Made by a program: the position numbers and the translations under genes
The notes under the pieces: model-generated
The model's database searches: none
What the model was told of the DNA's origin: nothing
The model's input: the letters and a program-made list of their open reading frames with translations, nothing else
NCBI GenBank assembly: GCA_020831775.1
Contig: JAFIFZ010000006.1
Location: 1 to 61,018, forward strand
DNA: 61,018 nucleotides
Reading direction: 5' to 3'
DNA from: Phycisphaerales bacterium
GTDB taxonomy: Bacteria > Planctomycetota > Phycisphaerae > Phycisphaerales > UBA1924
Shown: positions 48,403-52,784 of the stretch, piece after piece
How positions within the stretch are numbered: position 1 is the stretch's first letter
Layout of the letters: each line of letters opens with the position of its first letter

Positions 48403-48588
48403 TCACCAGCTCGACTTGCGCATGCCCGGGATCTTGCCCTCAAGGGCGAGCTTGCGGAGCATGATCCTGCTGATGCGGAACTTGCGGTAGTACCCGCGCG
48501 CCCGCCCGGTCAGCTCGCACCTGCGGACGACCCGCGAGGAGTATTTCGGCTTGCGGTTGCTCTTTGCGACCTGCGCCTTGGTGGCCAT
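48403..48588 (-). CDS. rpsN: 30S ribosomal protein S14, short form without zinc ligands
   Basis: 61 residues, the length of zinc-binding (type Z) S14, ending in the typical [10 protein letters not shown] with [16 protein letters not shown] before it. Type Z S14 normally has two CxxC pairs; here only one Cys remains (RRCELTGR) and the second pair reads SRIM. The site is therefore lost, although the protein has not gained the extra N-terminal length of the usual zinc-free form. Genomic position between rplE and rpsH is standard. Confidence 0.95.
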
Positions 48589-51165: not shown

Positions 51166-51864
51166 TCAGCGCCGGCCTCTGGCCCGCATCCGCCGCCCGG
51201 GGGCCGCGGTGTCTTCTTCTTCCTGCTGGCTGTAGAAGCCGCGGTACACCCACGCCTTCACGCCGATCACGCCGTAGGTCGTCACCGACTCGGCAAACCC
51301 GTACTCCACCCTCGCCTGCAGGGTCGAAAGGGGGAGCGCCCCGTGGCGAACCTCCAGGCGCCGGCTCATGTCGGCCCCGCCCAGGCGACCGGCGATGCCG
51401 ATCTTCACGCCCTTGGCGCCCGCCTGCATCGCGGCCTCGGCCCGCATCTTCAGGGCCCGGCGGAAGCTCGAACGCCGCTTGAGCTGCTCGGCCACCGCCT
51501 CGGCGATGAGCTGCGGGTCGATGTCGGGGTTCTTGATCTCGACGATCGAGATCGCGACCTTGCGAGCCGTCATGAACTGCAGCTCCTGCTGCATCCGGTC
51601 CACCTCGGCGCCCTTGGGGCCGATGACCAGGCCCGGACGCGCGGTCCGGATGATGATCTTCAGCTCCTCGCGGGTGCGCTCGATGTGGATGTCGGCGACC
51701 GCGGCGTTTGGCGGCGTCCGGTTCAGACGCTTGTCGAGGAACCGGCGGATCTTTTCGTCTTCGATCAGGAGCTCGCCGTAGAGCGCCTTGGGCGCGTACC
51801 AGCGGCTCCTGTGGGCCTCGGTGATGCCGAGGCGGAGCCCGAACGGGTGCGTCTTCTGGCCCAT
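51166..51864 (-). CDS. rpsC: 30S ribosomal protein S3
   Basis: mRNA-entry helicase protein of the 30S head. 232 residues: MGQKTHPFGLRLGITEAHRS, the KH domain with VLIGPKG-type loop (PGLVIGPKGAEVDRM), FRRALKMRAEAAMQAGAKGV and GRLGGADMSRRLEVRHGALPL. The ATG overlaps the rplV stop by one base (TAATG), indicating coupling. Confidence 0.97.
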   Translation of the reverse strand: MGQKTHPFGLRLGITEAHRSRWYAPKALYGELLIEDEKIRRFLDKRLNRTPPNAAVADIHIERTREELKIIIRTARPGLVIGPKGAEVDRMQQELQFMTARKVAISIVEIKNPDIDPQLIAEAVAEQLKRRSSFRRALKMRAEAAMQAGAKGVKIGIAGRLGGADMSRRLEVRHGALPLSTLQARVEYGFAESVTTYGVIGVKAWVYRGFYSQQEEEDTAAPGRRMRARGRR

Positions 51865-52412
51865 TAAGCCCTCTCCTCCAGCCCGATGGTGATGTGGCTG
51901 GTCTGCTTCAGAATCGGATGCGCCCGCCCGCGGTCCTTGGGGCGGAACCGCTTGATCTGCGGCCCCTCCTCCACATGGACCTCGGCGATGACGAGACGCG
52001 CGGGATCGTTGGCCTCGAACTCCTCCGCCTCGGCGAAGGCGGCAGCGAGGCACTTCTGCACATTGACCGAGGCACGCTTCGGGCTGAACCGAAGGATCTG
52101 CTCGGCCTGGTCGAACCGCTTGCCGCGGATCATGTCCGCGACCAGACGCGCCTTTTGGGTGCTGCCACGGTGGTAGCGCACCTCGCTGACGAAGCGGGCG
52201 ATGTCCTTGACCTGGACGCCCAGCACGCCGGCCATGCGGGCGAGGTCGGCCGCCTTGCAGCGGGGGTGGTCGCGCCCGGCCATCCAGTTGCGGACGGCCT
52301 TCTCGGCCTGCTTGCCGGTCAGACCCGTCCGCTCGACGGCGGCGGCGAGCTCTTCGACGCCGACACCGGCGCTCTGGGCCGCCTGCTTGAGTTTTTGGCT
52401 GTTCAGTCTCAC
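51864..52412 (-). CDS. rplV: 50S ribosomal protein L22 with N-terminal helix-turn-helix-like domain
   Basis: The L22 core starts near residue 74 (VSEVRYHRGSTQKARLVADM) and ends with the tunnel hairpin and PILKQTSHITIGLEE. It lines the exit tunnel. Residues 1-72 are not part of normal L22 (about 110 residues). They read like a Cro/Xre helix-turn-helix: SQKLKQAAQSAGVGVEELAAA, the recognition-helix region KQAEKAVRNWMAGRDHP, then AADLARMAGVLGVQVKDIARF. The extension is in frame with no stop, and ATG 52412 is the only suitable start before the rpsS stop. Whether it binds DNA or RNA is unknown. Confidence 0.95.
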   Translation of the reverse strand: MRLNSQKLKQAAQSAGVGVEELAAAVERTGLTGKQAEKAVRNWMAGRDHPRCKAADLARMAGVLGVQVKDIARFVSEVRYHRGSTQKARLVADMIRGKRFDQAEQILRFSPKRASVNVQKCLAAAFAEAEEFEANDPARLVIAEVHVEEGPQIKRFRPKDRGRAHPILKQTSHITIGLEERA

Positions 52413-52499
52413 GCCTGTTCACCCAATCTGCCCGGCGTCTGCCGGGGCGGTTCATTCCGAACCAGTTACCGTCTCAAATCCGGTCACCAGCTCAGGGCC

Positions 52500-52784
52500 T
52501 CAGCGCCCGGACCTGATGCCTTCCTTCTTGTTCGTGTGCCCGCGGAAGGTCCGCGTCGGTGCGAACTCCCCGAGCTTGTGCCCGACCATGTCCTCGGTGA
52601 CAAAGAGCTCCTGGAAGCTGCGCCCGTTGTGGATCTGGAAAGTCACACCCACGAACTCGGGCACGATCGTGCAGGAACGAGCCCAGGTCTTGATCGGCGT
52701 TCTGGCGCCGCTCTCGGCCTGACGCTGCACCTTGAAGTACAGCTTCTCGTCGACATACGGGCCCTTCTTTGCACTGCGACTCAT
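52500..52784 (-). CDS. rpsS: 30S ribosomal protein S19
   Basis: 30S head protein. 94 residues: [41 protein letters not shown] and the C-terminal [20 protein letters not shown]. Length is normal. It lies between rplB and rplV. Confidence 0.97.

Follow-up and report, generated by a model that had tools for sequence, protein, structure and literature searches.

The ribosomal protein uL22 encoded by the rplV gene of a Phycisphaerales bacterium carries, ahead of an ordinary core, an additional N-terminal domain with the predicted fold of a Cro/C1 (Xre) helix-turn-helix (HTH); this domain is continuous with the core, conserved, under selection and linked to L22. It may be a ribosome-docked structural module, a tentative reading that is favoured over a gene regulator at a probability of about 0.45. 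A whole repressor-type domain fixed on a tunnel-exit protein is undescribed in bacteria as far as a search of open-licence PubMed Central went.

The rplV gene and the limits of its extension

The window, i.e., the whole stretch of DNA analysed, comprises 61,018 nucleotides, and in its gene calls rplV is a single open reading frame that occupies the S10 operon position between S19 and S3, within a cluster of the S10/spc type (Table 1); the stop codon of rplV and the ATG of S3 overlap in the sequence TAATG. S19 is directly upstream of L22 in all 77 loci examined, two of the 79 being omitted because the contig end is too near. The core is recognised by Pfam Ribosomal_L22 (PF00237) over residues 78-178 (111 bits, cut-off 28) and by NCBIfam rplV_bact (TIGR01044) over residues 78-176 (107 bits, cut-off 73.65), and in a whole-protein search of solved structures L22 alone is found among the best 60 of 106 rows. 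The first residue of E. coli-type L22 aligns with residue 72 of the window protein, so the extra part comprises residues 1-71, followed by an ordinary uL22 at residues 72-181; among the matches listed, the alignment of most solved bacterial L22 chains starts at residue 71-73. The earlier note, which was silent on the strand (minus), had described an N-terminus of 72 residues in excess of normal L22; the reading frame is real and the extra part is one residue shorter. A mis-called start or a chance reading frame was rejected, since only two codons separate the upstream stop from the GTG, homologous extensions occur throughout the window's family and the extension evolves under constraint (see below).

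In the same window, the S14 protein at 48403-48588 of the minus strand is of the short 61-aa form with a single cysteine. Short S14 proteins usually have zinc pairs, which are therefore missing here.

Table 1. Features of the rplV locus, with positions in the window.
Feature	Positions	Strand	Details or basis
rplV, uL22 with predicted N-terminal HTH domain	51864..52412	-	182 aa, GTG start at 52412, TAA stop
Predicted N-terminal HTH domain segment of rplV	52191..52412	-	Pfam over relatives, model, structure comparison, profile test
Predicted helix 2 of HTH, residues 19-25	52338..52358	-	helix limits from models
Predicted helix 3 (recognition-helix position), residues 33-44	52281..52316	-	models
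Conserved patch, residues 42-53 (N42, W43, G46, P50 and loop, basic in the window's family)	52254..52289	-	conservation, charge
uL22 core, residues 72-182 (72-181 = E. coli-type L22 1-110)	51867..52199	-	Pfam, alignment
S19-L22 intergenic stretch, 87 nt	52413..52499	-	element common to relatives: none seen
rpsS (S19), upstream neighbour	52500..52784	-	gene call
rpsC (S3), downstream neighbour	51166..51864	-	ATG overlaps L22 stop

Predicted fold of the extension

On the level of sequence profiles the HTH signal is weak for the window protein alone and clearer over its relatives. Pfam HTH_31 gives E 0.095 on the whole protein and 17.2 bits (E 0.0067, below the cut-off of 27) on residues 1-75; the curated Pfam cut-off for Cro/C1 HTH domains is not reached by the window protein, and NCBIfam carph-isopro (NF046037) scores 20.3 bits with a cut-off of 38. 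Among the 78 N-terminal domains of the window and its relatives, HTH_31 matches 76 at E <= 1 (best 1.6e-7), HTH_26 43 and HTH_3 26; HTH_31 also matches 65 of 79 full-length proteins. The profile search of the extra residues that the earlier note had proposed is thus positive over the relatives, with the window itself below the cut-off. Among eight domains taken from other families, two exceed a curated cut-off (HTH_26 26.0, cut-off 22; HTH_3 25.7, cut-off 23), and for the f26 and f4 domains among these eight there is no HTH match at E <= 0.1. Sequence-profile searches of solved structures returned nothing at E 0.001 with either of two profiles: the best match of the 25-domain profile is a viral RNA-binding protein (E 0.0066), followed by an HTH protein (0.042), and that of the profile from both clades (see below) is the HTH protein 7t5u (E 0.0024), followed by TniQ (0.005).

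Structure prediction supports the assignment of residues 1-71 to the Cro/C1 (Xre) HTH fold. AlphaFold models the whole protein with a mean pLDDT of 92.1 and a pTM of 0.82 (79 aligned sequences) and residues 1-75 alone with a pLDDT of 96.3 (78 rows); the first HTH helix begins at residue 5 and the domain leads directly into L22. In the comparison by VIA-align, the best match is C.Csp231I (3lfp; Z 10.3, 2.2 A over 68 residues) and further matches are BswR (9.5), SinR (9.1), P22 c2 (8.8) and a phosphonate enzyme (9.5), with Z >= 5 for 353 of 481 chains and Z >= 8 for 83; these Z values alone are not decisive, because a typical best Z for mostly helical models that lack a clear match is 14 (five models). 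The stronger point is that one kind of domain runs throughout the structural list: among the best 50 neighbours, 33 are HTH regulators or DNA-binding proteins related to these, and the other 17 are phosphonate enzymes with a domain of this type. At E <= 10 the Foldseek list comprises 277 PDB matches, of which the best is at 9.8e-3 and none at E <= 0.001; the best 50 of these 277 include 30 regulators or other HTH proteins, with Mbf1 and EDF1 (9f9s, 1x57) among them, and 20 phosphonate enzymes such as HppE and PhpD, top row included, whose matched part is presumably their own HTH-type domain. The Cro/Xre-like HTH that had been noticed from the letters of the sequence is therefore borne out by HTH_31 over the relatives, by a confidently predicted fold and by structural neighbours of the Cro/C1 type.

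The domain shares with the Cro/C1 HTH of Pfam HTH_3, HTH_26 and HTH_31, and of C.Csp231I, BswR, SinR and P22 c2, the predicted fold and the order of the helices; its NW..G...P segment follows the helix 3 pattern of this group, which we take to be usually W/E-x-G-x-x-x-P. It differs in the fusion to a ribosomal protein, in the scores of the window protein below the Pfam cut-offs, in variable residues where bases would be expected to be read and in a longer link between helices 2 and 3: the tight turn is lacking in the models, where the last residue of helix 2 is 25 or 26 and the first of helix 3 is 33. In the f4 domains this link is three residues shorter.

Distribution, constraint and history of the domain

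Among 269 genomes sampled from the order, each at least 90% complete, the extension is present in all 112 of the window's family (f1), where the match begins at model position 1-3 with E <= 2.7e-69, and in all six of family f4, where the match starts at position 1 in five genomes and a frame change divides the domain in the sixth; this sixth locus (L164, genome G039) comes from a two-contig assembly and a sequencing error is possible. In families f2, f3, f5 and f6 (151 genomes) the best E is 7.8e-53 or weaker and matches start at position 61 or later among the matches listed. In the class survey 38 of 148 genomes carry the extension: 10 of f1, two of f4 and 26 of a second clade, which we take to be the order Sedimentisphaerales, distributed over f13 (1), f18 (3), f20 (9 of 10), f23 (7), f24 (5) and f26 (1). 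The other 109 class matches start at position 33 or later, and no L22 match was obtained in G022 (f1, 82% complete) and G346 (f20). Direct reading of 26 extension-less loci (24 in the class and two genomes outside it) found no HTH before the core; eight further extension-less loci, in which the match or the frame runs upstream, likewise have no HTH and no profile score above 0.1 bits. In the phylum survey of 148 genomes, 131 outside the class match from position 42 or later among the matches listed; the extension was seen in none of the other families or classes sampled. Among named genome contigs, the best 80 of 509 relatives of this L22 are nearly all metagenome-assembled genomes labelled Phycisphaerales, Phycisphaerae or Planctomycetota, three being labelled otherwise (two cyanobacteria and one uncultured bacterium). 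Of the two outcomes that would speak against an HTH-bearing L22, namely a missing HTH match and a missing extension in related genomes, neither occurred.

The extension evolves under constraint and faster than the core, with a dN/dS of 0.158 and 0.057, respectively, in 21 separate pairs at >= 80% identity; this conclusion rests on the closer pairs and not on a first pooling of 34 pairs that included saturated ones (0.50 for the extension, 0.34 for the core). W43 and P50 do not vary among the 102 sequences compared, N42 is found in 101 and G46 is nearly fixed, all at the end of helix 3 and in the next loop; Ala occupies position 36 in 97 of the sequences and position 39 in 99. An HTH that became joined to L22 in the distant past and survives as a relic with no specific function would agree with its faster evolution and with the related families that lack it, but is very unlikely given its retention in every f1 genome, the dN/dS of the closer pairs and the two residues invariant across two clades. 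The entropies of positions 37, 38 and 41 are 3.18, 1.89 and 2.23 bits, the assignment to base reading following the general Cro/C1 pattern and not a residue-level structural alignment; positions 37 and 41 are where Cro/C1 proteins presumably read bases, and since these positions are variable a DNA operator shared by the L22 domains is unlikely. The loop GRDHPRCK is kept within f1, while the second clade reads GL..P.P instead. The mean net charge of the domain is +4.8 in f1 (79 sequences) and +6.3 in f4 (n = 3), and is lower in the second clade (mean +2.7, range -4 to 7, n = 20).

In sequence comparisons, the domains of the two clades resemble one another much more closely than they resemble the free Xre domains of the genome. 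A profile of 79 f1 domains, from which the core residues were excluded, gives 30-69 bits for 20 second-clade domains and 56-59 for three f4 domains, whereas the eight domains of the same genome that match HTH_3 do not exceed 10.5 bits and 400 shuffled decoys do not exceed 11.4. With a profile built in reverse on the second clade, 22 f1 domains score 35-68 bits and the f4 domains 64-69, whereas the HTH_3-matching domains stay at or below 15.5 and the shuffled decoys at or below 5.2. The profile-profile alignment of the two clades spans 72 residues, gapless, at 35% identity (E 1.8e-24). In 120 class genomes the domain profile has 30 hits, of which 29 fall on the L22 gene in as many genomes, while the thirtieth is a weak one (7.7e-4) in a 386-aa frame elsewhere; no close free-standing copy of the domain was found in these genomes, nor was a second copy in the window's own genome at E <= 10.

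In a tree of ribosomal proteins L2, S19, S3, L16 and L23 from 61 taxa, the second clade forms one group (100/99), f1, f4 and the extension-less f3 are unresolved among themselves, and three changes of extension state are needed. An exchange of the complete L22 gene between the clades was rejected, because in the tree of the L22 core f1 and f4 stay with their own order, although a topology that unites all rows with the extension is not rejected there (p-AU 0.089). An ancestral domain with subsequent losses and the transfer of a 5' segment both fit these data.

Role on the ribosome

We infer the place of the domain, its binding partner and its role along the following lines. Proteins uL22, uL23, uL24 and uL29 ring the tunnel exit, as stated in the excerpted text of PMC5071890, and residue 1 of the core is joined directly to the domain, which would therefore sit on the 50S surface near the tunnel exit. 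Here, the last part of helix 3 and the loop after it may dock on 23S rRNA or on a neighbouring ribosomal protein, and the docked domain may stabilise the tunnel-exit part of the 50S subunit during or after assembly. The nearly fixed residues of this patch, the variability of the positions presumed to read bases and the positive mean charge of the f1 domains speak for such docking. Such docking can be pictured like that of EDF1/Mbf1, the Cro/C1 HTH of which lies between the 18S rRNA helices h16 and h33 of the 40S subunit, according to the excerpted text of PMC7486125. Extensions of bacterial ribosomal proteins are common and largely unexplained in the part of PMC9534751 at hand, which includes a structured one on the L22 of Mycoplasma. 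The lower charge and the different post-helix 3 loop of the second clade count against docking, as do the fact that close relatives manage without the domain and the lengths of 23S rRNA blocks and of neighbouring ribosomal proteins, which do not follow it (see below). A structural prediction follows clearly, i.e., extra density at the tunnel exit, and the related families with and without the domain provide a natural comparison.

The same location would also suit a protein surface for nascent-chain, targeting or membrane-insertion factors, in which nucleic-acid binding is not required. In a fungal mitoribosome, helices at the N-termini of uL22m and uL24m block one of the tunnel's side paths, as an excerpt of PMC7560712 reports, and the HTH domains inside the enzymes HppE and PhpD in the structure lists are in line with such a platform, which is nevertheless unlikely: trigger factor does not follow the domain, being present in 98 of 100 class genomes, and the two genomes without it (f16 and f9) come from extension-less families. 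For the same reason replacement of trigger factor by the domain was rejected.

The earlier note had proposed that the domain could link ribosome assembly to gene control or bind rRNA. Docking on rRNA or a ribosomal protein is possible and is the reading preferred here; the link to gene control fares worse. Autoregulation by ribosomal proteins is established as such, the fold is that of repressors and all five domains scanned with PHROGs hit phage families of transcription regulation (best E 5.9e-6), so that free L22 in excess might bind and repress the DNA or mRNA of its own operon through the HTH; this is decidedly unlikely, given the variable base-reading positions, the lengthened HTH turn and the S19-L22 intergenic stretches, 77 of which (14-124 nt; two of 79 rows dropped as upstream sequence is lacking) share no conserved element before L22 when compared by eye. 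A GC hairpin lies upstream of the window's L22 and similar ones are suspected in three relatives. A combined possibility has a low probability, that of a transcription-factor fold which is a permanent part of the bacterial ribosome and still a switch, the domain of free L22 binding operon DNA, leader RNA or pre-rRNA until its incorporation into the 50S subunit; if true, it would couple subunit assembly or the state of the tunnel to gene expression.

No change of the ribosome paired with the domain emerged from lengths: among 22 23S rRNAs the 11 with the extension (one partial) are not set apart from the 11 without by the length of any block, which also offers nothing to the gene-control link, and the approximate lengths of L29, L24, L14 and S17 overlap between loci with and without it (L24 measured in 29 of 61 loci). 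Five 23S columns separate the two groups, weakly and with no tree correction over the 22 sequences.

Mbf1/EDF1 is likewise a Cro/C1 HTH on the ribosome. It differs in being a free factor of eukaryotes and archaea, found on the small subunit of collided ribosomes in the excerpted text of PMC7486125, and in its MBF1 or zinc-ribbon domain, whereas L22 is an integral protein of the bacterial large subunit in which such an N-terminal domain is absent. The L22 domain could, alongside Mbf1/EDF1, help to tell how DNA-binding folds enter ribosomes. Tails are a common addition to ribosomal proteins; in Mycoplasma pneumoniae, chloroplasts and mitochondria, uL22 also has added sequence, in part helical, for which the source excerpts describe no HTH fold. 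The NCBIfam model PRK12279 (L22/unknown domain fusion) matches only the L22 part of the window protein (residues 84-178, 51.6 bits, cut-off 526). Among the matches listed from open-licence PubMed Central, none describes an HTH carried by L22 or by any planctomycete ribosomal protein, and the earlier note likewise knew of no functional account of extended L22; the excerpts of an exit-tunnel survey (PMC13338714) and of a review of extraribosomal functions (PMC10931766) mention no such domain.

The rRNA and L22 comparisons yielded some further observations. The 23S rRNA of f1 is short (2734-2763 nt in five genomes, L117, L119, L120, L201 and L202), mainly owing to reduced helices around E. coli positions 261-360, and some f6 genomes are alike in this. 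About 290 extra bases near E. coli 1861-1880, possibly an intervening sequence or an intron, are present in the 23S rRNA L194 of genome G289 (f18), whose second rRNA copy, L204, has nearly the same length (3167 and 3170 bases), and about 450 extra bases lie near E. coli 1161-1180 in L203 (G333, f22). Finally, the L22 of f9 (L225, L226, L229 and L232), which has no N-terminal domain, has at its C-terminus a tail some 30-50 residues long in which Lys, Arg and Ala are abundant.
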